From an uncultured Verrucomicrobiota bacterium (GTDB lineage: Bacteria > Verrucomicrobiota > Verrucomicrobiia > Palsa-1439): a stretch of DNA of 33,722 nucleotides. Shown here one piece after another: positions 1-28,577 of the stretch; the first letter of the stretch is position 1, and each line of letters begins with the position of its first letter. The position numbers and the translations under genes were made by a program. Location of the stretch: NCBI GenBank assembly GCA_903825435.1, contig CAIKAP010000116.1, positions 1 through 33,722 of the forward strand. Direction: 5' to 3'. The notes under the pieces were generated by a model. The model did not search any database. It saw nothing but the letters and a program-made list of their open reading frames with translations, and was not told the origin of the DNA.

Positions 1-288
1 CGGGCCGACGCCAAGGGCGGAGCATGGTCGCCCATCGTAAAAGTAAGCCGAAGGGCCTCTGGAAAAACTGTTTTCACACCTTCGGCTCGCCATCTCCACT
101 CCAATCGCCATCCACTAAAAGAAGTTTTGCAAGAACGTCGGATGTTGGAGCATTTTGCGAATGTATTTCCACCCGGCGACACCTGCGTGCCTCGTATTGG
201 CCCCGCCGGACATTTCGTCAAAATTCCTTTTGAAATACATGTTGCAGAAAGCATTGAAATACAAGTGGATGGATGGTGGGCCCGGTAG
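1..288 (+). CDS. Possible 3' end of a CDS entering from the left; open frame 1 ending at TAG 286-288 inside the att/tRNA fragment
   Basis: Frame 1 is open from base 1: ...EVLQERRMLEHFANVFPPGDTCVPRIGPAGHFVKIPFEIHVAESIEIQVDGWWAR*. No start visible and no family recognised. Confidence 0.3.
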   Translation, partial: RADAKGGAWSPIVKVSRRASGKTVFTPSARHLHSNRHPLKEVLQERRMLEHFANVFPPGDTCVPRIGPAGHFVKIPFEIHVAESIEIQVDGWWAR

Positions 289-319
289 GATTCGAACCTA
301 CGACCAAAGGATTATGAGT
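274..319 (-). repeat. attL-like copy: displaced 3' fragment of the tRNA gene
   Basis: tggtgggcccggtaggattcgaacctacgaccaaaggattatgagt, identical to 10944-10989; diverges immediately at 273 and 320. Confidence 0.93.
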
Positions 320-390
320 AGCGGCAGAAGCGTTCAACGACGTTTTCACTTGTGCAAGCATGTCGCCTGAATCCTTTGGCATCGTGCCTC

Positions 391-1677
391 TTACGCCGCT
401 TCGTGTACAACAGGGGACGCGGTTGCACAAGGCATAACCGGCGGGCACGGTGGTATCACTAAAGGTATCACGGCACGGCCACCGGTAGCCCGCAACTGAA
501 TCCGCTTGGCTTGCGCTAACAGGTGGTCTTGCCGCACGTCGCCATACACCGCCGCAATGATTGCCGGGCCGCTCTTGTCGCCGATCAAAGCGGCAATCTC
601 CGCGTCGGTAAGGCCGCTCTGCCGCGCTTGCGTGACGAAGAAGCTGCGCAGCCCGTGCGGGGTGACGTGCCCGATCCCCAGCGCCAAGCAAGCCGCCGTT
701 AAACGCCGATTAACGGCGCATTGTTCCCGGCTTTGTTCCGCGTTCAACGGGCTGGGGAAAAGCAGGTGACTCCGGGCCCGCGTCTGCATCCCGCGCAACA
801 GTTGCACCAAGTCCGGCAGCATCGGCACAAACGGATTGCAGCCGCGTTTCAGGCGTTGGACGTGCAAGACGCCTTCGCGCCAGTCCACCGCTTCCCAATC
901 CATCGCCAGCGCCTCGCCGATGCGCAGCCCGGTGAAGGCGAGGAAACAAGCCAAGTCCGCAAGATCGTCGTTGCCGCGCATCCGCAGCCAACGCTCGATT
1001 GCGGCCAAGCCGTCCGGCGTCGGGGCGACTTCCCGGCAATGCCGAATCTTCGTTGTGTCGTGGTAGCTCTCGCGTCCGGCCAGCGGATTCGCTTTGATAC
1101 TGCCGCGCCGTTTCGCCAGCCGTAGGGCGTTGCTCAGCACGATCAATTCAAGGTCAACGCTCCGGTCACCGCCCTTGTTGCGCTGGTTGACCGTCTCGCC
1201 GTCTTTGCGCGTGTACGTAGTGACGTAGCCGCCCGCCGTCCGCCATTCCCGGTAATCGTCGCAATCGGCCAGCGTCAACGACACCGCCGCCCGGTTGCCG
1301 AAGAAGCCGCGCAGCGGGCGCATACAAACGACTTCCCGCCGCAAGGTCAACGGCGCTTTCGCCTTCATTTTCGGGGTGGGGCAACCGGCTTCAACGTAGG
1401 CGTCCAATACCGCGCCCACCGTCAGACGGTTGCGCGCCAGCGCCGCCACCGGCAATTCGATTCCGTGTGACTTCAAGGCTTGTTGGTTGCGCCATTCCTT
1501 GAAGATTTTCCGCGCCGTCGCCGGGTCATTCGTGCCGGTACTGCGAAACGTCCGCTTACCGTCAATCGTGACGCGGGCAAAGATCGTACCGCCGCGCCGG
1601 TACAAACCGGACCCGATGCGCTCCGGCGTTTGCTGCGCGACGGTGCGCGCCGTCTCGCCTTCGTTGCCGGTAATCAT
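391..1677 (-). CDS. int: Tyrosine recombinase/integrase
   Basis: 428 aa. C-terminal motifs FLAFTGLRIGEALAMDW and HGLRSFFVTQARQSGLTDAEIAALIGDKSGPAIIAAVYGDV; adjacent to attL. Confidence 0.9.
   Translation of the reverse strand: MITGNEGETARTVAQQTPERIGSGLYRRGGTIFARVTIDGKRTFRSTGTNDPATARKIFKEWRNQQALKSHGIELPVAALARNRLTVGAVLDAYVEAGCPTPKMKAKAPLTLRREVVCMRPLRGFFGNRAAVSLTLADCDDYREWRTAGGYVTTYTRKDGETVNQRNKGGDRSVDLELIVLSNALRLAKRRGSIKANPLAGRESYHDTTKIRHCREVAPTPDGLAAIERWLRMRGNDDLADLACFLAFTGLRIGEALAMDWEAVDWREGVLHVQRLKRGCNPFVPMLPDLVQLLRGMQTRARSHLLFPSPLNAEQSREQCAVNRRLTAACLALGIGHVTPHGLRSFFVTQARQSGLTDAEIAALIGDKSGPAIIAAVYGDVRQDHLLAQAKRIQLRATGGRAVIPLVIPPCPPVMPCATASPVVHEAA
449..474 (+). repeat. Left copy of terminal repeat (putative integrase arm-type site)
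   Basis: GGTGGTATCACTAAAGGTATCACGGC, 23/26 match in the same orientation to 10850-10875. Confidence 0.6.
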
Positions 1678-1844
1678 GGTCGCGCCTCTTTCTTCATGTA
1701 CGCCGCCAACGCCTTTTCGATCACCCAGCTTCGCGGGCGCTCATTCTTGGCGCAGTAGGCTTCCAACTTCGTAAACGTTTCGGGCGACAGTGAGATATTG
1801 AATTTGTTCACCGTGCCCAGCGGACTTCGTGGCTTTCGTGTCAT
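1674..1844 (-). CDS. Ribbon-helix-helix (CopG-like) small protein
   Basis: MTRKPRSPLGTVNKFNISLSPETFTKLEAYCAKNERPRSWVIEKALAAYMKKEARP. AAAGGAGA upstream; stop overlaps the int start (ATGA). Confidence 0.65.
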   Translation of the reverse strand: MTRKPRSPLGTVNKFNISLSPETFTKLEAYCAKNERPRSWVIEKALAAYMKKEARP

Positions 1845-1878
1845 GTGTGTTTCTCCTTTGTTTGTATCGGTAGCACCA

Positions 1879-2550
1879 TTAGCCACCGTTTGCAAGTCCA
1901 TTCTCGCCGCGTCGCCGAAAACTCTGCCAATGGAACACCAGCACACCGGCACCGGCAATCCTGTCGGCAATGCTGTCGCCGACACACGGCGCAAATTCGT
2001 CGGGATCGTGGTTGCTGATAAGGATCGTGTCGAGACTGTCATCATGCCGCTGGCAAACGATGTTGGTGAGGTTGCGCCGCTCCCATTCCGTTTCGTTGCG
2101 CTCGCCGATTTCGTCAACGACCAGCAACCGCACGCGCAACACGCTGGCCAGCGTCTTGCGCTCTGATTCAGTGGCCTTGTCATCCCAGCCGCGTTTGATG
2201 TTTTCAGAGAGAAACGCCGCCCGCCAATACCGGGCAGAGTGCCCTTGTAGGCACACATGCCGCCCCGCGCACGTCGCCAGTTGCGTCTTGCCGGTGCCGC
2301 GTCCACCGATAAACGCCAGCGTGACGCCCGCACCGTCCAACCGGGCTTTGACGTGTTGCCAGTACCGTTTCCAGTCGGCATTTTCAGGTTGAACTTTGCC
2401 CGCGCCCCAGCCGTCCGCCCACGTCACGAGCCGGGCAGGGAAGTCGGCGCGCTGGTAACTGTCCACGCACTGCCGCCGCCATTGCTGGTAATCCCATTCC
2501 GACACGTCGCCGCGTCCGGGGATCGTGAATCGCTTGGCAGGCTCGCTCAT
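1879..2550 (-). CDS. DnaC/IstB-like AAA+ ATPase, probable helicase loader
   Basis: Walker A GGRGTGKT, Walker B LLVVDEIGER; directly downstream of the replisome-organizer-like gene with a 4-nt overlap. Confidence 0.8.
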   Translation of the reverse strand: MSEPAKRFTIPGRGDVSEWDYQQWRRQCVDSYQRADFPARLVTWADGWGAGKVQPENADWKRYWQHVKARLDGAGVTLAFIGGRGTGKTQLATCAGRHVCLQGHSARYWRAAFLSENIKRGWDDKATESERKTLASVLRVRLLVVDEIGERNETEWERRNLTNIVCQRHDDSLDTILISNHDPDEFAPCVGDSIADRIAGAGVLVFHWQSFRRRGENGLANGG

Positions 2551-3161
2551 TTGAAAATCTGGTCACGACCCAAAGAGACGGGCGGGCGCGCCTTCCTTCC
2601 GGTTCTTGTGGGTGTTGTTGTGTTCTTGTTTGTGGCCGAATTTCGCGGGGCGGGATTGCCGCCGCTGGTCAATTTGCTGGCCGCAGTCGGGGCAGGGCGG
2701 GCGATTGCGCCAGTGTTTTCAGGGCTTCCCGCGCTGCGCTTGCTGGTCAATTCGCTGTCCGCTTTTGGCGTGTTTGCTGGCCGCTCGCTGGCCGCTTGCT
2801 GGTCAAGTAGCTGGCCGCTCGCTTGGTACTGCCGCCAATTTCGGATTGTAACGATTGAACCTTTGACGGTGCGTAGCTGGTCAATTTGCTGGTCGCTGCG
2901 CATCGTGCGCAACAGCCGCCGCACTTTGGATTCGTCAACGCCCGTCGCCTCTGCAATCGCATGGCGTCCGGTGAACAGTTGACCGGGCTGCAAGGTGACT
3001 TCGCGCCCGGCAACGCGCAGCCGGTAAGGCTTGTGCGTCGCCTTCGTCAACAGGTACACCCACACCGACACCCACGCGGGATCGCGGGAAAGCGGATTCT
3101 CCCAAAGGCGACGGTACAGCTTAACCCAGCCGTCGCCGCCGTCGTTGGCGGGCGGACTCAC
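2547..3161 (-). CDS. Phage replisome organizer / lambda-O-like replication initiator
   Basis: N-terminus DGWVKLYRRLWENPLSR...GREVTLQPGQLFTGRHAIAEATGVDESKVRRLLRTMR...GSIVTIRNWRQYQ is typical of the winged-helix replisome organizer family; low-complexity C-terminal half. Confidence 0.75.
   Translation of the reverse strand: MSPPANDGGDGWVKLYRRLWENPLSRDPAWVSVWVYLLTKATHKPYRLRVAGREVTLQPGQLFTGRHAIAEATGVDESKVRRLLRTMRSDQQIDQLRTVKGSIVTIRNWRQYQASGQLLDQQAASERPANTPKADSELTSKRSAGSPENTGAIARPAPTAASKLTSGGNPAPRNSATNKNTTTPTRTGRKARPPVSLGRDQIFK
2664..2896 (+). repeat. Four iteron-like 21-mers inside the replisome-organizer ORF
   Basis: GCTGGTCAATTTGCTGGCCGC-like units at 2664, 2742, 2798 and 2876 (spacings 78, 56, 78), plus extra GCTGG boxes at 2776 and 2787. 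Confidence 0.65.
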
Positions 3162-3364
3162 AAGCCGCCCCTCAGCGTCTTACCGCGTTGCTGGAAATGC
3201 GCGGCACGGTCGCACACGATCCGACGCGCCGCCGCTTCCACGTCGGCAAGGAATGACTGCGAGACGCGCCAGAATTTCGGCGGGCGATTCATCCGGGCTT
3301 GCCGGGCGTTGGCCGTGTCCAACGCCAACCGGCGAACGGCGCTTTGATTCAACAGGTGTTTCAC
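3158..3364 (-). CDS. Hypothetical small protein (GTG start overlapping the upstream stop)
   Basis: VKHLLNQSAVRRLALDTANARQARMNRPPKFWRVSQSFLADVEAAARRIVCDRAAHFQQRGKTLRGGL; 4-nt overlaps with both neighbours. Confidence 0.55.
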   Translation of the reverse strand: MKHLLNQSAVRRLALDTANARQARMNRPPKFWRVSQSFLADVEAAARRIVCDRAAHFQQRGKTLRGGL

Positions 3365-3576
3365 GCCGCCCCGCTTTCGCCGTGCCGCGCCAACCACTCC
3401 CAAAAAACGGACTCACGCACGCGGCAGACACCGGCAACGCGGATCACCGGCAACCCGTGTTCCTGTCGCCAGCGCCACACCGTGCCGCGTGAAACGCTGG
3501 CGAGGGTTTGAATCTCGCCGAGAGTTAGCAACCGGTCCGGCGCGGTTGCCGTTGGTGCATTCTGTGGCGCGCTCAC
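3361..3576 (-). CDS. AlpA/excisionase-type helix-turn-helix protein
   Basis: LLTLGEIQTLASVSRGTVWRWRQEHGLPVIRVAGVCRVRESVFWEWLARH, a MerR/AlpA-like fold signature. Confidence 0.7.
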   Translation of the reverse strand: MSAPQNAPTATAPDRLLTLGEIQTLASVSRGTVWRWRQEHGLPVIRVAGVCRVRESVFWEWLARHGESGAA

Positions 3577-3776
3577 GGTGTCACCCGGTCGAAAATGGTT
3601 TCCGGTTCAACACCCAGCGCCCGCGCCAGCGTCAGCTTTTGCCCGTAAGTCGCCTCACGGTCGCCGTGTTCAATGGCGCTCAGCACGCTGGGGGCAATCC
3701 CAGCCGCCGCCGCCAACTTGTACGCGGCCAGCCCGCGCCGTCGCCGTTCAAGTAGAATCTTCTCCCCGTCGCTCAT
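3573..3776 (-). CDS. XRE-family transcriptional regulator
   Basis: MSDGEKILLERRRRGLAAYKLAAAAGIAPSVLSAIEHGDREATYGQKLTLARALGVEPETIF. Confidence 0.8.
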   Translation of the reverse strand: MSDGEKILLERRRRGLAAYKLAAAAGIAPSVLSAIEHGDREATYGQKLTLARALGVEPETIFDRVTP

Positions 3777-4029
3777 GTTCGTTTTCTCCTTCGCAACGCG
3801 GGGCAAAATTTTTTCGGGGCGGTGTCTCCGCTCGATTCTTTGCACCGCGTTTGCGGTTTTTGTTTCACTTCGGGCGTGAGAATAGGAGAAACGCCGAAAC
3901 CGCATAAGACGCGGAAAGCTCGGCAGGAATGACGGCGCGGCCACTAATCACCAACGCAATTCACGGCGCGGCCATGAATTGCCAGCCCGATTGATGGCCT
4001 ACCCGCGAAACACCGGAACGTTTCGCGGG

Positions 4030-5070
4030 TTACTTCTCACGCCGCCACGAAAGCGGCTTTTCATCGGCGGGGAGAAACGGAAACAGTTGGTGAAGCCGCT
4101 CCAACACTTCGCGGCGGGCGTCGCGCCACTTGGTAGGATCGCCCCACTTGTCGGAAGCAAATTGCTTCGTCTTGTGAATCGGCGCGCACTCGGCAAGCTC
4201 TGGACGGCGGGCGTTGCCGAGAATCTCAACCGGCGTGTAACGTGAGAGAAGGCGCATTGCTGCCAAGCGCGTGAGATCGGCGCGCACGTCGCGCGGCTTA
4301 TGCCCGCGCCGGTCCGGTGCCGGTGCCGTGGGCGGGCGCAACTTCGGCAACACCTTGCGGAAGTAGTCGGCAATTGATTCGTTGGTAAACTCATTCCACG
4401 CGATTTCTAACAACACCGTTTCGGCATCGCCAATGAAGAATCCGGGGCGCATTTCTGGCGAGTCTGGCAGATCGGGCGCGCCGGGATTTGCTCGCAAATA
4501 TCCTTCGGCGTTCTTGTAAAGGTAACGCTTTTCATATTCCTTCCACTGCCGGAGTTGTTCACCCGCCCAGGTGTCACCCCGGCGGACAATCTCCCTAGCC
4601 ATGCGCCAGTCTGCTAGATTTACCGGCGCAGGTCGAAAGTGTTCCCTGAAGCGTGGCCCGCGTGCCCGCTCCTTTTTTTCGTCATCGGCAAGCGATTGCC
4701 ACGGATCGGGAAAGCTGCCGGTAATCGGCGGGGCGTCCGGGACATCGCTACGGCGTCCACGGCCAAAACAGAAGCCTCTCACGAAAACGTCAGCCGGATA
4801 TCCGATGCTCTGAATCTTGTCGAGTTTGCCGCACCAGTCCGGGCGCGTTTGCTTTGCAAGGTCAACTTTGTCGCCCGCTTCAACGTCGCGCCTTACGCAC
4901 TCGTAACCGTCGCGCAAGGCGTCACGGATGAAAGCGGACTCCCGCGCATATTCCCAATAACAGCACGCCACAAGCTCCGCTTGCGTCACGCCGTCAAAAT
5001 TCCATTCTCGCCAGTCGAGTGCGCGCCCGCGCTCGCTGGGGACTTTCCGGGCTTGTGATTCTGTCGCCAT
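4030..5070 (-). CDS. Hypothetical protein, paralogue A of a tandem pair
   Basis: 346 aa. Shares with the next gene LDWxxWNFDxVTxxELxACCYWEYARES, ITGxFPDxWQSL and ADLTRLAAMRxLSRYTPVEIxGNxRRPxLAECAPIHKTKQFASDKWGDPTKWRDARRE. Confidence 0.8.
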   Translation of the reverse strand: MATESQARKVPSERGRALDWREWNFDGVTQAELVACCYWEYARESAFIRDALRDGYECVRRDVEAGDKVDLAKQTRPDWCGKLDKIQSIGYPADVFVRGFCFGRGRRSDVPDAPPITGSFPDPWQSLADDEKKERARGPRFREHFRPAPVNLADWRMAREIVRRGDTWAGEQLRQWKEYEKRYLYKNAEGYLRANPGAPDLPDSPEMRPGFFIGDAETVLLEIAWNEFTNESIADYFRKVLPKLRPPTAPAPDRRGHKPRDVRADLTRLAAMRLLSRYTPVEILGNARRPELAECAPIHKTKQFASDKWGDPTKWRDARREVLERLHQLFPFLPADEKPLSWRREK

Positions 5071-5079
5071 TTGCCAGCC

Positions 5080-6126
5080 TCAGCTTTCTCGCCGCCATGA
5101 AAGCGGTTTTTCGTCGGTGGGGAGAAACGGAAACATTTCACGAAACCGCTCTGCCGCTTCGCGGCGGGCGTCGCGCCACTTGGTAGGATCACCCCACTTG
5201 TCGGAAGCAAATTGCTTCGTCTTGTGAATCGGCGCGCACTCGGCAAGTGGTGGACGGCGTGTGTTGCCGATAATTTCCACCGGGGTATAACGTGACAAAA
5301 TCCGCATTGCAGCCAACCGCGTGAGATCGGCGCGCAAGTCTTTCGGCTTGTGCCCGCGCCCGTCCGGTTTCGGAATATCGGGCGGGCGGTTTGGTCCTAC
5401 CCACTTGCGAAACGCTTCAACAATTTCGTCGTTGGTGAAGTCCGCCCACTCGATTTTCACTGATAAACATTCCGCGCCGCCTTCCCAAAACACAGAGGCG
5501 GTAGGCCGGTAGTCGGGATACTTGCCTTGTCGCCGCAACGTGCCTTCACCGACACCGGGATTGTCCCGGTGCAGCTTGTCACGTATGGCGATAAAATCGC
5601 GCAAACTCCCCTGTGCCCGTTCAACGAGCATTTCAGCCGTCAACAAACTTCCGTCGCGGTCAAAGGCTCGCAAGGGAATAACTTCACGGTCGCTGCGGAT
5701 GTGCGAACGGTGTGCGCGTTCCGCTACGGTGAGAGATTGCCAGGCATCGGGAAAGTTTCCGGTTATCGGCGGAGCGTCCGGGTGTCTGTAATTCGGCTTG
5801 TCGGGATCGTCGCTTTGAGTAACCGGGTCACGATCAAACGCACAGCCGCAAAGAAAAACCTCCGAGTGATACGGGATCGGCTCTTGAATCCGGCACAATG
5901 CCGCGTCGAGTTCGCCCGCTTCTGGAATGTCCGTGTGTCCGCCCGCTTTCCACCAGTCCCGATACCGCCGCAACGTGTCCCGGATGAAAGTTGACTCCCG
6001 CGCATACTCCCAATAGCAACACGCCAGAAGCTCCGGCTCGGTTACACGGTCAAAATTCCAGTCTTTCCAGTCGAGTGCGCGCCCGCGCTCGCTGGGAACA
6101 CTCCCGGCTTGTGGTTTTGTCGGCAC
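5080..6126 (-). CDS. Hypothetical protein, paralogue B of a tandem pair
   Basis: 348 aa. Conserved N- and C-terminal blocks with paralogue A, divergent middle; nearly identical DNA over part of the 3' end. Confidence 0.8.
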   Translation of the reverse strand: MPTKPQAGSVPSERGRALDWKDWNFDRVTEPELLACCYWEYARESTFIRDTLRRYRDWWKAGGHTDIPEAGELDAALCRIQEPIPYHSEVFLCGCAFDRDPVTQSDDPDKPNYRHPDAPPITGNFPDAWQSLTVAERAHRSHIRSDREVIPLRAFDRDGSLLTAEMLVERAQGSLRDFIAIRDKLHRDNPGVGEGTLRRQGKYPDYRPTASVFWEGGAECLSVKIEWADFTNDEIVEAFRKWVGPNRPPDIPKPDGRGHKPKDLRADLTRLAAMRILSRYTPVEIIGNTRRPPLAECAPIHKTKQFASDKWGDPTKWRDARREAAERFREMFPFLPTDEKPLSWRRES

Positions 6127-6250
6127 GTGCCTACCTTCCTTGTGCCCGGCCAGCGTTGACGCGCTGCGGTGGGTGTGGACTTCCGCCTATCTTTCCCGCC
6201 CCACCATGCCGGGCATTCTTTCGGGAAAGCGGCTCAAATTACCGGTGCCG

Positions 6251-9007
6251 TCAACCGGGCTTCGTCGCCGCTCCGCTGGTTTGACCGGCGGCGCGGTCGT
6301 GGTTCAACTTCAAAAGGCGTTCAAGAATTTCGTCGTCAGTCAGGGTGACCGGCCAGCCGTAGGCCGCGCACACGGCGGCGTCAAGTTTCGCGTGCGCGTT
6401 GGCCAGCCACGTCGCTTTACCGGCGGCAAGTTTGTTGTAAAGGGCGGTCAGGGTTTTGGCGTCGCCGTTCGGATCGCTGAGGACGTTGTTGCGCTGGTCG
6501 GTGAGTTCCTTCGCAGCGGCGGCGATAGCGTCAACGTGTCGGCGCTGTTCAACGGTCAAGGCGTCCAGCGGTGTGCGCGGCGGCCACGGAAACGGGAACG
6601 TTTCAAAGCAGGTCGTCGGCGTGTAGCGCGGGCGTGTCTCCAACCGTGTGCCAAGTTTCAACGCCCAAACCTCATGCGCTCGTGAGTGCAGGACGCCGAA
6701 AAAGTAATCGTCGTCACGAGCAAAGACATACGTTGAAGTGTCCGGCAACCAATCCGAAGGCAGCCAAAGAAAAAGCCGGTGCTTGGAAACACGGGGAGTG
6801 CAGATCATCCGTGACAAGCCTTTTACGCCTTCGCGCATATCCTCACCACTGCGGCGGTGCATCCACCAGAATTTCCGCAACCGTTCATCCCGGTTCTGCT
6901 GCCGTTCCTGCTGAACGTGCTCTTTCAGATACTCAAAGGGCGCTTCAAACTGTGCCACGGCGGTTTCATCTTCCAAACCGGCAAAGTCGATAATCCAAAC
7001 CTCTTTCGGATTCTTCAGCATCATGTCGGCATTCGTCCACCGCCGGAGAACATCGGCGTTGGACTTTCCGTTGGGGTTTTGCTTACGAAGCATGTCCGCC
7101 GCTGTTTCCTTGCTGATTTCAAAAGAGCCGCCTTTCTCGACGGGGCGGAAACAGAAGTTCGCATTTTCCGGTAATGCCATTGCTTGCGTGAGGTCACCGG
7201 CTGCCGTCAAGTTGGCGTTGATTGTCGGCACCGGCTGGCCGTCGAGGGTGCGCGTCTGGTCGCTGCCGTTGTCGAATCCAATCATGGAAATGTGGACGTT
7301 TGCGCCGTCGAGAATCCAATCCCGGTCGCTGACGGCAAAGAAGATGTCACCGGTAGCCTTGATGCGTTTGAGGACTTCCCGGTTAGCGCCGCCGCGAATG
7401 CCTTGCGTTGCCAGCAATCCCGCCCGTTGGCACTTGCCGTCCGCGATAAGCTCGCGTGCCTTTTCAAACCAGTAGCAACAGTAATCGGCGGTCTTTGGCA
7501 CGCGGTCGCTGAATTTTGCGTGCAGCCTGTCAACGTAGGCGTCCGTGAGCTCCCGGCGTTGGAAGGCTGAACCAAGAAACGGCGGGTTGCTGATAATGAA
7601 ATCCACGTCCGGCCAGTCGGTGAAAAGAGCGTCGGCTTGCAGGAAATTCTTGTCGAGTTGCAACAGAATCGGCTCTTTGGGTGAGCCGTAGCCGTGGGCG
7701 CGCAGCCATTGAATGTAACCGATTTGCACGGTGACTTGCGCGAGGCTGTGGGCGTAGGTGTTGATTTCGATCAAGTAAAGCTGTCCCGGATTCACGCCCG
7801 GAAAATACGGGGTAAAACTGTGCGCGCCGAGGTAGTCGTTGACTTCTTTTTCGAGGTCGAGAATTTTTTGCAGCGTGACGTAGAGGAAGTTACCGGAGCC
7901 GCCCGCAGAGTCCAACACGCGCAGACGTTTGAGGCGTTCAAGGAAGGCGGTCAGAAGTTTTTCAGCGGCGGCGCGGTTTTTCTTGGCGTCAGTGGCAAGC
8001 AAGGCGTCCGCCTTGCCGCGCACGTCCGCCCACTCGCGGCGCAGCGGTGTCATAATCACCGGTTCAACAATCGTTTCAATGTCGGCGCGCCCGGTGTACT
8101 GCGCGCCAAGCTGGGAACGCTGTTGCGGGTCAATGCCACGGGTAAAGAGCGTGCCGAAAATTGAGGCGTCAACGGTGTTCCATTCCAACGCGGCAGCGCC
8201 GGCAACGCGCTCGATTTCGTCGCGGGTGAGGTCAAGGACGGTCGCATCGGCAAAGAGGTTGCCGTTAAAATGTTTGATGATGTCCGCGCCAAACTCGCCG
8301 CCGTTGGCCATTGCGCCAAAGAGTTGCGCCACCATGCGACTAAAACGCGGCGGATCGTTGCGCCCCTTGTTGACAATCTCGGCAAAGAGTCCACGCGGCA
8401 GCAAGTCCACGTCTTCAGCAAAGAGACAGAAGACCAACCGAATGAGGTAGTGGGCGACGGCGTGCGGTTCAAGGCCGCGCTTGCCCATCATACCGGCCAG
8501 CTCGCCAAGCTGCGCGGCGGCGTGCTCAGTAATGGCGCGGCTCGGCTCGCCGGGTTTGAGCTTGGCGGGATCGTGGAAGACGGCGCGAAGAATTTCGAGG
8601 TTGCGCGGGGCGTCGAGTGCGGCCAGCGGAATTTCAAACGTCAGCGGCTTGGTGTTGGTAAAGTTGGTGTGGACAATCAGCCGGTCCATGTCGCACACGA
8701 CCAGCAACGGCGGATTTTCGAGGTCTTCCCGGTAAAGCAAAAGCTGGTCGTAAGCGGCGGCGAGGTCTTTGTGTTTGCCCTTGTACTCCCAGCCGAAGAA
8801 ATCTTTTTTCCACACGTCCGCCCAGCCGTCGCCGCCGCCGTGCTTGGCCGCGCCGCGCTCGAAAGTGAAGGTGTCGCCGGTCTTGTCCACGTCAATCGGC
8901 TGGGGATGTCCCAGCACGCCGCACAGATCGTTGAAATGCGATTGCGCGGCGGCGCGCTCGGTCAATTCAACGTTGCGCCAATTGGCGATAAATTCGGCAG
9001 CGGTCAT
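6251..9007 (-). CDS. MmeI-like (Type IIL) fused restriction endonuclease / N6-adenine methyltransferase
   Basis: N-terminal nuclease-like FFGWEYKGKHKDLAAAYDQLLLYREDLENPPLLVVCDMDR (E-x-K); SAM motif LDSAGGSGNFLYVTL; catalytic motif ISNPPFLGS; C-terminal specificity-like region. Start taken at MTAAEFIANW. Confidence 0.85.
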   Translation of the reverse strand: MTAAEFIANWRNVELTERAAAQSHFNDLCGVLGHPQPIDVDKTGDTFTFERGAAKHGGGDGWADVWKKDFFGWEYKGKHKDLAAAYDQLLLYREDLENPPLLVVCDMDRLIVHTNFTNTKPLTFEIPLAALDAPRNLEILRAVFHDPAKLKPGEPSRAITEHAAAQLGELAGMMGKRGLEPHAVAHYLIRLVFCLFAEDVDLLPRGLFAEIVNKGRNDPPRFSRMVAQLFGAMANGGEFGADIIKHFNGNLFADATVLDLTRDEIERVAGAAALEWNTVDASIFGTLFTRGIDPQQRSQLGAQYTGRADIETIVEPVIMTPLRREWADVRGKADALLATDAKKNRAAAEKLLTAFLERLKRLRVLDSAGGSGNFLYVTLQKILDLEKEVNDYLGAHSFTPYFPGVNPGQLYLIEINTYAHSLAQVTVQIGYIQWLRAHGYGSPKEPILLQLDKNFLQADALFTDWPDVDFIISNPPFLGSAFQRRELTDAYVDRLHAKFSDRVPKTADYCCYWFEKARELIADGKCQRAGLLATQGIRGGANREVLKRIKATGDIFFAVSDRDWILDGANVHISMIGFDNGSDQTRTLDGQPVPTINANLTAAGDLTQAMALPENANFCFRPVEKGGSFEISKETAADMLRKQNPNGKSNADVLRRWTNADMMLKNPKEVWIIDFAGLEDETAVAQFEAPFEYLKEHVQQERQQNRDERLRKFWWMHRRSGEDMREGVKGLSRMICTPRVSKHRLFLWLPSDWLPDTSTYVFARDDDYFFGVLHSRAHEVWALKLGTRLETRPRYTPTTCFETFPFPWPPRTPLDALTVEQRRHVDAIAAAAKELTDQRNNVLSDPNGDAKTLTALYNKLAAGKATWLANAHAKLDAAVCAAYGWPVTLTDDEILERLLKLNHDRAAGQTSGAATKPG

Positions 9008-9065
9008 GGCCGCGCATCCTACCGCCAAGCCCACAAACCGGCAAGGCTAGGCGTCAACGCACAGC

Positions 9066-9210
9066 CTTGAAATACCTTGAACAGGGGTGAACAGGCGTTA
9101 ATAGCCGTGAACAGGCGTTACTTGCCGTGTGTGCCGTAGGCGGGAAAAGGCGGAAGAAGGCGGAAATAACCGAAAGTAGGGGAAATTAGCCGCAACAAGG
9201 GGAAACCGGG
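9066..9210. repeat. 10-bp-periodic degenerate decamer array
   Basis: Consecutive decamers from 9076: cttgaacagg ggtgaacagg cgttaatagc cgtgaacagg cgttacttgc cgtgtgtgcc gtaggcggga aaaggcggaa gaaggcggaa ataaccgaaa gtaggggaaa ttagccgcaa caaggggaaa. Confidence 0.7.
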
Positions 9211-9214
9211 GCGC

Positions 9215-9649
9215 TCAGGGTTTGACCTTCAAGCCTTCGGCTTCGGCAAGCCGCCGCTGATTCTTGTCAAACGTCAGAAACACTTTTGCCCCCAGCGTCA
9301 ACGCGGTTGCCACGTGCACAACGTCAAGCGCGCTGTAGCCGTGCCGGACCGTGTGGGTGTTGCTCAGGCGCTCTGCCGTCGCGTGGACTTGTTCCCATTC
9401 GACAGGCGGGATCACCACGCGCCCGGCGTCAACGTCCGCGTCGAAAGCGGCCAGTGCCGCCACTGCCACGCCACCGGGCATGTCTTTGCGAAAGGCCGCT
9501 GCGCGGATCGCGTTGCACGCCTCAAACCGCAACAGGCTGGCGGCGTGGATTGGCTCTTGCATCGTCGCCGCGTGCGCGCTGGCCAAGTCCGCGTTGGCTT
9601 GCGGAACGTACAAGGCGCAAAGGAAACTGGCATCGGGGTAGGCGTTCAC
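9215..9649 (-). CDS. PIN-domain toxin (VapC-like)
   Basis: MNAYPDASFLCALYVPQANADLA... ALDVVHVATALTLGAKVFLTFDKNQRRLAEAEGL; paired with an upstream antitoxin by a 4-nt overlap. Confidence 0.85.
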   Translation of the reverse strand: MNAYPDASFLCALYVPQANADLASAHAATMQEPIHAASLLRFEACNAIRAAAFRKDMPGGVAVAALAAFDADVDAGRVVIPPVEWEQVHATAERLSNTHTVRHGYSALDVVHVATALTLGAKVFLTFDKNQRRLAEAEGLKVKP

Positions 9650-9900
9650 GAGAAACGCCGATCCTCAGCGTCTTTCATCCGTTTTACCGCCGCGTCACTC
9701 ATCACAAAGCCGCCGCTGTACGCCCGCGCCCGCGCCGCGAAGTCCGGCATTTGCACTTTGCCGGGCTTGGCTGGCACGTCCGGCACCAAGCGTGCCACTG
9801 GCCGCCCGCGTCGCGTCAAGCGCACCGTGCCGCCGTGTTCCACGATCCGCAACACGCCGGTCGGGTTGTGCATCAATTCCCGCATAGTGATAGTTGTCAT
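9646..9900 (-). CDS. Phd/YefM-type antitoxin
   Basis: MTTITMRELMHNPTGVLRIVEHGGTVRLTRRGRPVARLVPDVPAKPGKVQMPDFAARARAYSGGF. Confidence 0.82.
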   Translation of the reverse strand: MTTITMRELMHNPTGVLRIVEHGGTVRLTRRGRPVARLVPDVPAKPGKVQMPDFAARARAYSGGFVMSDAAVKRMKDAEDRRFS

Positions 9901-10403
9901 GTCCAACACCATGTCCAACAATGCCGCAAAAGTCAAGTCGCCGCCGTCCGCGAACAAGGCAACGGCAACGCGCCCCGGCAATTCGCGCCCGTCTTGCGCG
10001 GTCAACGTCACACCGCTGCCGCGCTCCGGTAACGCCGTCAGGGAATTGCGAACACGTCAACGCCGTGCCGCCGCCGCCGCTATCGCGCCGCGTCAACGCG
10101 GGCAGGTAATTCGCCCGCGTCGCCACCGGTGCGAGTCGCACCGCTGGCGCGCTTCGGCAACGCGCCGCTGTTGCCCCACCCACCAGCGCGCATAACGGGC
10201 GGGCTTGTAGCCACGCCCCTTTGCGCTCCCCCCGCCCCGCATTGGTCGCTTCGCTCCCTCGCTCCCTTGCGCGGTTGCCCCGCGCTACTGGCGCGCACGC
10301 GCCGCAGACGGCGCGCCGCGCCTCAGTTTGTCGCACGCGCTGCCGCGTTGCGAGGATCACCATTGCCACGGCCAGCCAACGACACGGCAACGACTCCGGC
10401 TAG

Positions 10404-10798
10404 ACCCGCGCCGCCGTCGCCCCGATCCGTGCCGGTAAGGAATGCGCCCCGGCAAGACGTGTCCGGCAGGTGTGGCCTGTCACGTCGCTGGCTTTCAGTC
10501 GCCCCGACACCGCTGCGCGGTCTTTCCGCTACACGACCAGCGCAAAGGCCGCTACGCTTGCCACGTAGTACACATTGTGCGTCCGCTCACTGGCGCGCCT
10601 ACCCGAAGGACGGGCAAGCGCGCCGCTCGCACATGCTGAGCCTCTCCGCTTGCGCGGCGCTCTCAGCACGTCGCACAATGTGGCACTACGTGGCATGTCG
10701 GGGCTTGGTGAGTGCCAGCGCCGCGCCAGTCCACACCTACCGGCCAAGCCGGGGCGCGGGGCGGGGTGACCGGCACGAAGGGCGACGGCGGCGCGGGT
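10404..10798 (-). ncRNA. Candidate large structured noncoding RNA (395-nt foldback, unknown class); strand inferred
   Basis: Terminal 19-bp perfect complement (10404-10422 / 10780-10798), then nested helices: 10428-10436/10769-10777; 10444-10453/10748-10757; 10463-10492/10714-10743; 10501-10509/10696-10704. Inner branches: hairpin 10517-10552; stem 10561-10568/10686-10693 plus 10571-10581/10672-10682; hairpins 10592-10624 and 10634-10668. Confidence 0.55.
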
Positions 10799-10849
10799 GA
10801 CGCCCGAAGATGATGCGCGGGCTACCGCCCGCGCCCCCGGCAAAACGGT

Positions 10850-10875
10850 GGTGGTATCACTTTTGGTATCACGGC
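10850..10875 (+). repeat. Right copy of terminal repeat (putative integrase arm-type site)
   Basis: GGTGGTATCACTTTTGGTATCACGGC; same orientation as 449-474, differing in the 3-nt spacer. Confidence 0.6.
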
Positions 10876-10943
10876 GCATTTCGCGCCTTGCACCGTTGCC
10901 GGGGGTGAACTACAAAAGCCCTTGCATTGCAAGGGTGGGGAAG

Positions 10944-11019
10944 TGGTGGGCCCGGTAGGATTCGAACCTACGACCAAAGGATTATGAGTCCTCCGCTCTA
11001 ACCACTGAGCTACAGGCCC
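10944..11019 (-). tRNA. tRNA with CAU anticodon, most like tRNA-Ile2 (elongator Met not excluded)
   Basis: GGGCCTGTAGCTCAGTGGTTAGAGCGGAGGACTCATAATCCTTTGGTCGTAGGTTCGAATCCTACCGGGCCCACCA, 76 nt with encoded CCA; acceptor GGGCCTG/CGGGCCC; CTCATAA loop followed by TTTGGTCG resembles E. coli tRNA-Ile2. Confidence 0.95.
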
Positions 11020-23180: not shown

Positions 23181-24722
23181 ATGACCATTATGCACCCGCT
23201 TTCCAAATCCAAACTCCTTGCCTACCGGCAGTGTCCCAAACGACTATGGCTCGAAGTCCATCAGCCTGCGTTGCGGGAAGATTCGGCAGCCACTCAGGCA
23301 AGATTTCAAGCGGGCTACCAGGTCGGTGACATTGCGAAGCGCATTTATGACCCCGAGGGGAAAGGAGCCATCATTGACGTGGAGACTGAGGGCTTTGATG
23401 GTGCATTTGTGCGCACTGCGAAATTGCTGGCCGATTCCCGGTGGCCTGTATTTGAGGCGGCCTTTAGGGCGAACGGGGCGTTGGCGTTTGCGGATGTAAT
23501 GCTGCCGGAGTTTGAAAACGGTCAACGTATGTGGAAAATGGTCGAAGTTAAATCTTCTACCTCCGTTAAGGATTATCATCGGGATGACATTGCGGTGCAG
23601 ACATTCGTGGCGCAGTTCGCTGGGGTGAAATTGAAGTCGATCGCATTGGCGCATATTGACAACTCGTGGGTTTATCCGGGCAATCAAGACTATCGAGGAT
23701 TGTTAATTGAAAACGACCTCACGGCAGAAACGTTTGCTCGATCAGAAGAGGTCAAAGGCTGGATTGCTGAGGCTCAGAGGATTGTCGCCCAGCCCGCCGA
23801 ACCCGAAATTGCCGTCGGTGACCAATGCTACTCTCCTTTTGAATGCGGGTTTTGCGACTATTGCAACCGCGATAATCCGCAGCCGGAGTATCCAATTCAC
23901 TGGCTACCGCGTTTTTCCGCTGCGAAGCGTGAGCAGCTTGCTGAACAGGGCGTGGATGATCTGCGAGGTGTACCGGATGACTTGCTCAGTGAAAAACAAT
24001 CCTTGGTCAAAGAACACACGCTGGCCAATACAGTATTCTTTGATGCCGCTGGCGCCGCCGGCGACCTCGCACCTTACGGTTTCCCTGGGTATTTTCTCGA
24101 TTTCGAGACCATCCAGTTTGCTGTGCCCATCTGGAAAGGCACTCGCCCCTATCAAATAATTACTTTCCAGTTCAGCCTCCACACCCTTGATGAATCCGGC
24201 CACCTTTCACATACCGCGTTTCTTGATCTCTCCGGTAATGACCCGTCCGAGCGTCTCGCCAAGGCGTTGATCACGGCCTGCGGCGAGAACGGTCCCGTAT
24301 TCGTCTATAATGCGGCATTTGAGCCAACTCGTATCGGCGAGCTGGCCGAGCGTTACCCTGATTTAGCCCAGGCGCTGCTGCGCATTAACACACGAGTTGT
24401 TGACCTCCTTCCGATTGCACGTAGCCGGTACTATCACCCCAGCCAACAGGGGAGTTGGAGCCTCAAGGCGGTGCTGCCCGCCGTAGTGCCTGAATTAAGT
24501 TACAACAATCTCAACGGCGTGGCTGATGGTGGAATGGCCATGGACGCATTCTGCGAAGCAATACAACCCGTTACCAGCGAAGCGCGAAAAAACGAAATCG
24601 AGAAGCAGCTTCTCGCGTATTGCCGGCTTGATACGTTTGCCACGGTGCGGCTGTGGCAATTTTTCTTCTGGACGCAATGGGTCTCCGGTGCAACAATGAT
24701 TGCCGTGAGCTGGCTGGAGTAA
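23181..24722 (+). CDS. DUF2779-type protein: Cas4-like PD-(D/E)XK region + Cys cluster + DnaQ-like exonuclease
   Basis: LSKSKLLAYRQCPKRLWLE; ADVMLPEF...WKMVEVKSSTSVKDYHRDDIAVQTFV; CYSPFECGFCDYC; YFLDFETIQFAVPIW; FVYNAAFEPTRI; CRLDTFATVRLW. Confidence 0.82.
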   Translation: MTIMHPLSKSKLLAYRQCPKRLWLEVHQPALREDSAATQARFQAGYQVGDIAKRIYDPEGKGAIIDVETEGFDGAFVRTAKLLADSRWPVFEAAFRANGALAFADVMLPEFENGQRMWKMVEVKSSTSVKDYHRDDIAVQTFVAQFAGVKLKSIALAHIDNSWVYPGNQDYRGLLIENDLTAETFARSEEVKGWIAEAQRIVAQPAEPEIAVGDQCYSPFECGFCDYCNRDNPQPEYPIHWLPRFSAAKREQLAEQGVDDLRGVPDDLLSEKQSLVKEHTLANTVFFDAAGAAGDLAPYGFPGYFLDFETIQFAVPIWKGTRPYQIITFQFSLHTLDESGHLSHTAFLDLSGNDPSERLAKALITACGENGPVFVYNAAFEPTRIGELAERYPDLAQALLRINTRVVDLLPIARSRYYHPSQQGSWSLKAVLPAVVPELSYNNLNGVADGGMAMDAFCEAIQPVTSEARKNEIEKQLLAYCRLDTFATVRLWQFFFWTQWVSGATMIAVSWLE

Positions 24723-24843
24723 TATCAATGACGCTACAAATATCAGTACAACTAAGACATGTTGAAAGTCATCCCACTGTAGCACCTCTTCGCCGCCGGT
24801 GCCGTCTCGATTGAGATTCGCCCATTCACTGAAAGGAAACTCC

Positions 24844-27189
24844 ATGAGCTATCTCAACAACACCATCTCCGTTCCCAAGCCAATCACTGTCACGCTCAAG
24901 CAGGTCGCCGCATGGGATCTTGAGCATCTTAACGCCCCATGCGAGATCAAGGCGGGCGTGCCAGCGCTCCAGCGCGGCCTCGTCTGGAGTCCACGGCAAG
25001 TCGAGTTTTTGTGGGATTCCATCCTGCGGGGCTTTCCCATCGGGAGTCTGGTAGTGAGCAAACAGATGGACAGTCAGAAGCGTAGAGGCGACAAGTCGGG
25101 TATTACCCACCACTTGCTCGACGGTCAGCAACGGGCCAACGCCATTACCCTGGGGTTTCACGACCCATTCGCTCGAAACGATGTCAAGGTCAGAGACAAC
25201 AAGTCCGAGTCAATCCTATGGTTGGATCTCGCACCACCAACGACCAGTTGCCCCGGCTCTCAGTTTCCCCCCAACAGCACCCGCGAGTTCTTAAACAGCA
25301 CCCGCGAATTCTTAACCCGTGTCACAACTCTGGCACATCCTTGGGGCTATCGAGCCGATGACAACGCATTACCACTGAGCGCGGCGGACGCCAGAGCTGG
25401 AATCAAATCAGAATATGAAGGGAGAGCTAGCCCTTTAGGAAAACCTTCCTCACTGCAGCTCTTTCCCAGATGGAGCAATGCGCCTGTTCCCCTGTCATGG
25501 CTTCTTGTCGCAATCGAAGATGGAAAAGATGAGAATGGGCAAGACCAATTCAGGGAAAAGCAGGATTTCTGGGGCATTGTTAAAGGAAGGTTGAAGCAAG
25601 AGGCGGCGGAACGCAGATGGCCAAAGCTGGCTCTCGAAGTCTTGCAGCAACTGTCTGACACATCGAGCCTCAATCAGATTTACCATGGGGTTCTCCGTGC
25701 GGTGCAGACGCCGCTTGTGATCCTAGAGGCACCCGAGGAACTTCTCGCGACCTCACGGCAGGAAAAGTCCAACAACGATGAGAACGCAGAGAATATCGCA
25801 AGTATCGAGCATCTCTTTAATCGGCTGAATCGACTTGGTACCCCCTTAGATGGTGAAGAACTCGCTTACTCAATGATCAAAGCCAATTGGCCGGATGTAG
25901 CGGATGTGATCGACGCCGTGTCAACACGCCGAGTTCCCGCCTCCCACTTGGTTTCACTAGGGGTCCGTGCCTCCATCACCGATTCTCGGAGCGGCAAACT
26001 TGCGCGAGGAATGACAATTCCGCGCCTGCGCGCCATCGCCAAGGCAGTCCCTCCTAATGAAGGGGAAGTAGCCTCGTCCGCATTCGAGCATCGCCGCCAG
26101 ATTGAGGAGTTTATTGGAAAGCAGGACAGCAGCGTTGGCGCAGTGGGAAAAGACCGTTTAGCTAGGGCTTGCGGCAAGGTGGACAAGTGGCTGGTCTTTG
26201 ATCGAGACAATTCTCCCAATGGCCTCCCACCGGTACTTTTATCCAGCTTCGCACGTGGAAGTTCTGATATCTACCTATTCCTCCTTCGTATCGCCGATCA
26301 ACTCGGAACACGCGATCCCGCTCAGGATAGCGAGTGGAATAGTCTGTTACCAGGTCTCGCAACTCTTATTCATTGGTTTACTAGGGATGACAAACTTACA
26401 ATTGCTGATTTGCTCTTGGCGAGTACTGCTCGGGAGATTTCCCCTCAGAATGTCCGCGACGGGATCACAGAAGCGATTGAGAAAGATCTGATTGTTATGC
26501 CACGCCATCCAGATGAGTTGGAAAAGTTTATCAAATTTCCGGACGGCAAGCATTTAATGGACTGGGAATGGTGGAAGTCGCTGATCGAAGCTGCACCAGA
26601 AGAGGAACGCGCCAAACTTCAAAATACTTGGAAGCCATTTCTTAAACGCACGGCGTGGGGAAAAGAGCTGCTTCTGTATGGCCAGAGAAGCTACTTGGAC
26701 AGACAATTCAATGATTATGACCCATCAAGAAAGGATCTCTGGGAGAATCACAACCGGCCGTGGGATTTCGATCACATTCATGCCGTATTTTATTTCTGGG
26801 GTAAGCAGGGCGCCTATGCGCATTTCTGTCGCGAATGGGGCGATTGCATCGGCAATCTGCGTGCATGGCCTTTCGAGGAGAACCGTTCGTACCAGACAGA
26901 TACAGCGAAAGAGAAGCTCAGCGGCAAGCCCAATGAGATGAAGTGGAGTTTGATCGAATCGGAAGCCGAACTGGAGGCTTTCTCACAACGTCACGACACG
27001 CGATTCAAACCTGCAGACGCGCGTGCTTTGGCGGAAGCGATCAAAACCCGATTCATTAGGATTTACAGAGATTGGTACAACTCGACTGGAATGAGTCTCA
27101 TTCTATTACGAAAACCCTCATTAATGTCGCCGGGATCAACCCCGCAACTTGAGGTTACCACTGACTCCAGCCTGTTGAACAATAAATGA
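24844..27189 (+). CDS. DUF262 + HNH (DUF1524-like) protein, GmrSD / Type IV restriction-like
   Basis: N-terminus VPALQRGLVWSPRQVEFLWDSILRGFPIGSLVVSK...HHLLDGQQRANAITLGF; C-terminus RPWDFDHIHAVFYF...GDCIGNLRAWPFEENRSYQ. Confidence 0.85.
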   Translation: MSYLNNTISVPKPITVTLKQVAAWDLEHLNAPCEIKAGVPALQRGLVWSPRQVEFLWDSILRGFPIGSLVVSKQMDSQKRRGDKSGITHHLLDGQQRANAITLGFHDPFARNDVKVRDNKSESILWLDLAPPTTSCPGSQFPPNSTREFLNSTREFLTRVTTLAHPWGYRADDNALPLSAADARAGIKSEYEGRASPLGKPSSLQLFPRWSNAPVPLSWLLVAIEDGKDENGQDQFREKQDFWGIVKGRLKQEAAERRWPKLALEVLQQLSDTSSLNQIYHGVLRAVQTPLVILEAPEELLATSRQEKSNNDENAENIASIEHLFNRLNRLGTPLDGEELAYSMIKANWPDVADVIDAVSTRRVPASHLVSLGVRASITDSRSGKLARGMTIPRLRAIAKAVPPNEGEVASSAFEHRRQIEEFIGKQDSSVGAVGKDRLARACGKVDKWLVFDRDNSPNGLPPVLLSSFARGSSDIYLFLLRIADQLGTRDPAQDSEWNSLLPGLATLIHWFTRDDKLTIADLLLASTAREISPQNVRDGITEAIEKDLIVMPRHPDELEKFIKFPDGKHLMDWEWWKSLIEAAPEEERAKLQNTWKPFLKRTAWGKELLLYGQRSYLDRQFNDYDPSRKDLWENHNRPWDFDHIHAVFYFWGKQGAYAHFCREWGDCIGNLRAWPFEENRSYQTDTAKEKLSGKPNEMKWSLIESEAELEAFSQRHDTRFKPADARALAEAIKTRFIRIYRDWYNSTGMSLILLRKPSLMSPGSTPQLEVTTDSSLLNNK

Positions 27190-27206
27190 CATCGGAAAGG
27201 AAAACT

Positions 27207-27410
27207 ATGCCTGCTAACCCCAAACATCGCGAGCACGTTCGCGCATCCGCCAATGAGAAGGACAAAGACGGTCAGCCGCCATTGAATTATGCCGCAGCCT
27301 ACGGAGACAACGATCTCGCCAAACGGTTGCTGGCTACATGTTGTGCATGTGAACTGAAGTCCCTCAGACAGCTTCGTGTTGATGTTGTCGTAAATGTTGG
27401 GCATGAGTGA
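27207..27410 (+). pseudogene. Truncated ankyrin-repeat-like ORF
   Basis: ANEKDKDGQPPLNYAAAYGDNDLAKRLLA resembles one ankyrin repeat; then unrelated residues and a stop. AAGGA upstream of ATG. Confidence 0.45.
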
Positions 27411-27413
27411 AGG

Positions 27414-28577
27414 TCAATCCACTTCCCCGGCATCCTCGGCCGGCTGGGGTTGCTCGAACAAATCCAAGTAGGGCTTGAACCGGAAACGCCGGTTGCGCTT
27501 CCAGCCGGTGGTCTCCTGCAACAAACCGGCTTGGACGAATTGCTCGACGACCTGGTTGGCCTTCACGTAAGAGCAGTCCAAGTGCTGTTCCACCAAGCGC
27601 ACGGTAATGATCGGTTGCTCGAATAGGTAATCGAACAGCTTGTGGCCGGCGACGGAGTTGCCGAGGGATTCCATGAGGGTCCGGCGCCCGCTCTCGCGCA
27701 GCGCCAAAATCTGCCGGGCCGTATTCGTTGCCGCGTCACTGACTTCGGCGACGCCTTTGAGGAAAAATTTTAGCCACGCTTCCCAGTTTCCGTCGTAGCA
27801 TTCTTTGTTCGACACACTACGGACGTATGCTGCAACACAGTTGTGCTGCGACCGGCTCAGCGTCTGCAAGCCACCAACATTCGTTATGGGAGTGATTGTC
27901 AGATCCACTTTCGTAATCCCGCTCACAGGTGGAGCGGAGAACTGCCGTTCCCGGTATCGTCTTCCGCCGCTACGAGTGATTTCCTCAACGAGTTCTTGGT
28001 GCACTATTCGCATTTCCTTTACGGACGACAATTTCCTTGTGGGTTCCCCATGCCCCAATTCCAGTCGCAACTCATGGATGTCCCTGAGCAATTCTATGTA
28101 CTCCGGTGGCCCATCCTCGATTGCGCCCTCCGCAACCTGCAAACGCAACTGGGGCGCCAAGTACGTTAGAAGTTCTCCCTCGGCAACCAACGCCAGCACC
28201 CCGGTATTGATGCGCGGCAGGTGGGCGAGCAGTTGTCGAATGTCTTCGCGCCGCAACGCCTGACGCAATCTCCGGCACCGCTCAATGGTGAGCGATTCCG
28301 GGACACATTTGCGTCCAATCTTGGCAACTGCTTCGGTTGCTGGTCTAAAACCGAGCCAACCGAGAATCTCCCGTTGCGGCTTGGTCACATAGAAGCGCGC
28401 AGCAGCAAGCGGGGATGGCTCCGGGGGGCATTTGATGTCCGTATTATTGGCCAGACAGAAACCAGCCAGCGGATTCGATGTCAACAGATAAACAGCCGCC
28501 TGCTTCCCCTCCAAGACAAACAATCTGATTGCGCCTCGGGCCGATTGAAACCTCTCAATTGGATTCTTTGCCGACAC
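27414..28577 (-). CDS. Chimeric ORF: PcfJ-like N-terminal part joined in frame to the C-terminal part of a Fic-family protein
   Basis: aa ~1-260 contain SVKEMRIVHQELVEEI and SRSQHNCVAAYVRSV (PcfJ-like); from aa 262 DGNWEAWLKFFLKGVAEVSDAATNTARQILALRE...WKRNRRFRFKPYLDLFE is Fic C-terminal/winged-helix-like; no Fic core motif. Confidence 0.65.
   Translation of the reverse strand: MSAKNPIERFQSARGAIRLFVLEGKQAAVYLLTSNPLAGFCLANNTDIKCPPEPSPLAAARFYVTKPQREILGWLGFRPATEAVAKIGRKCVPESLTIERCRRLRQALRREDIRQLLAHLPRINTGVLALVAEGELLTYLAPQLRLQVAEGAIEDGPPEYIELLRDIHELRLELGHGEPTRKLSSVKEMRIVHQELVEEITRSGGRRYRERQFSAPPVSGITKVDLTITPITNVGGLQTLSRSQHNCVAAYVRSVSNKECYDGNWEAWLKFFLKGVAEVSDAATNTARQILALRESGRRTLMESLGNSVAGHKLFDYLFEQPIITVRLVEQHLDCSYVKANQVVEQFVQAGLLQETTGWKRNRRFRFKPYLDLFEQPQPAEDAGEVD

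Follow-up and report, generated by a model that had tools for sequence, protein, structure and literature searches.

The tRNA-Met island

The window analysed here is a contig of 33,722 nt from an uncultured Verrucomicrobiota bacterium (CAIKAP010000116.1) and contains an integrative element inserted at a tRNA-Met gene (Table 1). This island combines an integrase with phage-type replication genes and also encodes an Arc-like regulator and a repressor-like protein, and no structural genes were found among its main ORFs, a gene make-up that suggests a phage-satellite-like element, which might be mobilised by a helper phage. Close to both ends, at 449 and 10850, paired GGTATCAC repeats resemble arm-type sites of the integrase. 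The cargo includes two tandem paralogous proteins of ~347 aa (4030-5070 and 5080-6126, both on the minus strand) with DNA stretches 82-85% identical and no match in Pfam, PHROGs, PADLOC or NCBIfam. Diverged direct repeats of ~64 nt, recognised mainly by eye, are found at 9967-10158, adjoining the conserved non-coding unit described below, and two copies of a ~64-nt diverged direct repeat (75%) are present in another locus (L025, 7046-7172). Outside the island, Cas4-like, GmrSD_N/HEC-05-like and PcfJ/SoFic-like matches are clustered at 23181-28577, in what is possibly a defence cluster.

Table 1 Features of the island and of the foldback at its tRNA-proximal end
Feature	Positions	Strand	Remarks
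Integrative element	274-10989		10.7 kb, between 46-bp perfect direct repeats
attL	274-319	+	Duplicates the 3' portion of tRNA-Met, 100% over 46 bp
Tyrosine integrase	391-1677	-	PF00589
Putative integrase arm-type repeat, left end	449-474	+	GGTATCAC x2
DnaC-like helicase loader	1879-2550	-	phrog_50, 1e-31
DnaD/O-like replication initiator	2547-3161	-	phrog_2514
Type IIG/MmeI-like restriction-modification cargo	6251-9034	-	
PIN toxin/Phd-type antitoxin pair	9215-10011	-	Antitoxin just under the Pfam cut-off
Conserved non-coding unit	10131-10800	-	Common to three islands, sharp edges
Predicted hairpin	10137-10201	-	Far (3') edge of the unit
Most conserved block	10212-10289	-	Purine-rich on minus, no strong structure
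Branched foldback domain (main feature)	10404-10798	-	Proposed 5' domain of a candidate RNA
Outermost helix	10404-10423/10779-10798		20 bp
Helix	10427-10436/10769-10778		10 bp
Helix	10444-10453/10748-10757		10 bp
Helix	10463-10475/10731-10743		13 bp
Core of the fold	10494-10707	-	77 consensus pairs; 0 broken between homologues, 7 compensatory
Helix	10501-10510/10695-10704		10 bp
Side hairpin	10517-10552	-	2 compensatory pairs and 1 G.U change
Apical stem	10560-10581/10672-10694		Around hairpins 10592-10624 and 10631-10671
Apical hairpin	10592-10624	-	14 bp; 6-nt difference in loop length among homologues
Apical hairpin	10634-10668	-	Window loop GCAA, replaced in G009 by a GAA triloop
Putative integrase arm-type repeat, right end	10850-10875	+	GGTATCAC x2
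Terminator-like stem-loop with T tract	10919-10935	-	Between tRNA-Met and the fold, just inside the element
attR	10944-10989	+	Within tRNA-Met, 10944-11019 (minus)

A foldback inside a conserved non-coding unit

Next to attR, the DNA of the island folds over its full 395 nt as a branched rod, with 151 pairs on the minus strand. A preliminary description made from the letters alone had placed a multi-branched foldback of 395 nt at this tRNA-proximal end, and both its position and all the helices then listed were recovered by computation; the extensive pairing was borne out as well, with the hand count of about 130 pairs rising to about 150. The same description had judged the minus strand to be favoured, and this is what was found: the minus strand reached -285.9 kcal/mol (z -15.3) and the plus strand -254 kcal/mol (z -10.2), with no shuffle as good in either case. 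In a scan across the element, the 400-nt segment at 10401 was the most extreme fold on either strand. The foldback had been described as a feature by itself, but it forms part of a longer conserved non-coding unit of ~670 bp. The foldback keeps an identical fold when the entire unit is folded, and the remaining part (10130-10403) shows no exceptional degree of structure (z -1.2).

Two homologues of the unit were found. One (C105) lies in a second island of the same genome, with an integrase 60% identical, on a contig that ends inside the fold; the break falls within the apical part of the foldback (L005, 6924) and was perhaps caused by the structure disturbing sequencing or assembly. The other is a complete copy (G009, CAINDI010000099.1) from isolate Kiruna2, of a related Verrucomicrobia genus in the same family. 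The genome that contains the window is probably a freshwater Verrucomicrobia MAG, the lake habitat being read from this isolate name. Similarity begins at ~10131 and, in the comparison between the window and G009, in which the right edge can be seen, it ends at 10800, the edge of the foldback. Within the unit the three islands are 84-91% identical, and identity in the flanks drops to about 47-63%. The stretch 10200-10290 is the best preserved, with about 91-92% identity in the pairs that involve the window and 99% between G009 and C105. Over the unit, C105 is 91% identical to G009 and 84-85% to the window, so that it is nearer to the copy of another genus than to the other copy of its own genome, which points to horizontal exchange. 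Furthermore, the integrases and replication genes of the three islands differ or are unrelated: the initiators have no significant mutual similarity and the DnaC-like loaders are weakly similar between two of the islands. Since the main replication proteins are not recognisably related, the unit is not tied to one initiator.

The G009 homologue has the same architecture (z -11.0 on the minus and -6.5 on the plus strand). On the minus strand it has 135 pairs in common with the window, 7 of them with both bases changed and 6 with a one-sided change to or from G.U; 8 window pairs are broken in G009, and the outer stem accounts for half of these. In the core, 77 of 77 pairs are intact in both sequences (154 of 154 cells paired) and the 7 both-side changes are spread over five helices, against 0-1 in slid controls. 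When the substitutions were permuted 5000 times, at most 4-6 double changes appeared, compared with the 8 observed, and 15-21 broken pairs were expected, compared with 8. The homologues thus retain the structure through compensatory changes, as expected of a structured ncRNA, which supports the interpretation in the preliminary description, although the power of covariation is limited because the comparison comprises two complete copies (window and G009) and a partial one (C105).

Wobble pairs gave the same strand preference as the energies. Where pairs are predicted for both strands, the minus reading has 10 positions with G.U against 2 with A.C (probability about 0.02 in a one-sided sign test), although the counts are small and come from few sequences. 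Two C.A mismatches reported earlier, at 10467/10739 and 10482/10724, do become G.U on the minus strand. As the wobbles are G.U there and rarely A.C, it seems to be the minus strand, in single-stranded form, that is under selection. Overall, the structure is real, selected and narrowly distributed. We also considered whether the loop CCCCGCCCC (10758-10768) might pair with the G-rich block and rejected this, as G009 does not conserve the loop.

A candidate RNA and the alternatives

We consider the foldback to be probably a large structured ncRNA, new and of narrow distribution, that belongs to satellite-type islands. In its specific form, that of the 5' domain of a minus-strand ncRNA of up to ~670 nt at the attR end, exchanged between islands as a module, this is the reading that we favour by a modest degree. 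If made, the RNA may extend to about 670 nt, because of the conserved block 10212-10289 and the hairpin 10137-10201 at the edge of the unit. The earlier proposal of a large structured RNA holds as regards structure, non-coding nature, strand preference and conservation, and we infer the transcript, with leftward transcription. The read-through from the tRNA promoter that had been suggested is weakened by a terminator-like hairpin (10919-10935; 1 found compared with 1.3 expected by chance) that sits between the tRNA and the fold, so that a promoter of its own seems likelier. A search for a consensus promoter gave no match. In an active island, transcription would start leftward from the element's own promoter, most likely near 10800-10915, and the transcript would act as a free-standing structured RNA, with a role comparable to those of the PLE IIR transcript, GOLLD and ROOL. 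It could scaffold RNA or RNP assembly, or regulate genes of the element or of the helper phage, and the invariant purine-rich block 10212-10289 would be a likely contact surface, its exact target being a guess. Antisense action on gene leaders was set aside, since the fold has too few long unpaired stretches. More tentatively, and with less than even confidence, the unit could represent an undescribed class of RNA that moves as a module between Verrucomicrobia phage satellites, whichever replication genes these carry, and that works in trans, perhaps through RNA-particle assembly or interference with a helper phage.

The chief competing reading is a cis-acting signal formed by folded single-stranded DNA (such as a single-strand origin, a primosome site or a transfer signal), in which the minus strand would fold during a single-stranded stage; we regard it as rather unlikely. 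DNA folding parameters yield equal z-scores (-11.0 for the plus and -15.0 for the minus strand), the G.T wobbles on one strand would be expected here too, and GNRA/GNA loops suit DNA hairpins as well. The islands bear replication modules, the unit of G009 adjoins O/DnaC-like genes, and there is a precedent in ICEBs1, an integrative element in which a folded strand (sso1) is orientation-specific (PMC4595007). However, the ICEBs1 signal consists of three stem-loops and not of a rod of 395 nt, and it serves rolling-circle replication (PMC4595007), while neither a cognate HUH Rep nor a relaxase was seen among the main ORFs scanned in the island, although a helper could supply the enzyme. A regex scan for HUH/RT motifs matched only unsupported frames. 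In addition, an initiator-specific origin would be co-inherited with its initiator gene, and here a unit 84-91% identical accompanies initiators that are not recognisably homologous.

A functionless, decaying inverted duplication or MITE-like insertion, its arms kept alike by template switching, appears quite improbable. The arms are indeed an inverted repeat 72% identical and the unit has sharp edges; moreover, template-switch repair of inverted repeats can maintain stems and create paired changes that resemble compensation (PMC8794818). But the compensatory changes found here are isolated single pairs over five helices, short hairpins included, and substitutions are depleted at paired positions, which take up 302 of the 395 but received 30 of the 55 changes. 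Template switching alone would not explain the strand bias of the wobbles either. Only two copies are present in the genome, both within islands, and no target-site duplication was noticed by eye. Finally, a coding unit, either as a 223-aa protein (10129-10800, plus strand) whose frame is open across the whole unit or as a 116-aa protein (10529-10879, minus strand), is already contradicted by sequence and can practically be dismissed, given indels of 1 nt between copies that shift the plus-strand frame, substitutions with no clear excess at third codon positions, no Pfam match for either ORF and a GC content of 70% that makes long chance ORFs likely, in agreement with the non-coding nature first proposed.

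Precedents and distribution

At the gathering threshold tRNA was the sole Rfam match, and the GOLLD and ROOL covariance models gave none even at E<=10, so the absence from Rfam foreseen in the preliminary description held; weak matches (Termite-flg, E 0.22, and others) were far under the threshold and were discarded. Retron, bridge, omega and HEARO RNAs are also structured, come from mobile elements and in some cases have paired ends, but the island proteins scanned yielded no reverse transcriptase, IS110-type, IscB or TnpB. By analogy, the nearest precedents in role for the candidate RNA would be PLE IIR and GOLLD/ROOL. The former, flanked by inverted repeats, is transcribed abundantly in Vibrio cholerae satellites (PMC7567579). 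Like the foldback, it is a non-coding stretch with inverted-repeat ends in an integrated satellite without structural genes; the likeness is one of layout and role, and PLE IIR differs in lying between gene clusters and in being a proven transcript, while here a branched fold at attR is known from sequence. GOLLD and ROOL are ncRNAs, large and ornate, that phages and prophages carry and that often lie close to tRNAs; GOLLD env-38 was originally identified downstream of a Met-tRNA (PMC12286853). A satellite-like island at tRNA-Met resembles the setting of GOLLD, which is encoded in phages or prophage-like elements close to a tRNA, but in context only, and the foldback differs in being shorter, dominated by one long rod and devoid of an Rfam match. 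Few ncRNAs of this large, ornate kind have been described from phages and satellites, mostly without a known function; the unit would add a compact example whose module edge is defined and whose small host islands have exchanged their replication genes, and could make a tractable case.

The unit seems to be confined to few genomes. DNA searches covered 385 genomes of the class and 390 of the phylum, an RNA model was applied to 141 relatives plus 7 genomes from a different family, and pattern searches used one 29-base pattern against genome_contigs and four patterns against viral_contigs; together these found only C105, C99 and chance matches. No homologue was detected in integrase-based scans of genome_contigs and viral_contigs or in plasmid and phage collections, and islands with related integrases in other genomes had no similar fold at the tRNA end. 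With such a narrow spread, family-wide searches can miss RNAs of this type. Two strong folds met during these comparisons, at 10301 in L052 (a 21-nt tandem repeat) and at 1201 in L057 (a hairpin around 1361-1440), were dropped as att mapping placed them outside the islands. The related integrases (L048-L058) mark an island family in this Verrucomicrobia class, and in at least six of these loci tRNA-derived att repeats of 45-95 bp flank an island of 7-15 kb. The repeat array of L052 (10271-10575), outside the island, has a ATGCATCTTC core and is strongly self-complementary.
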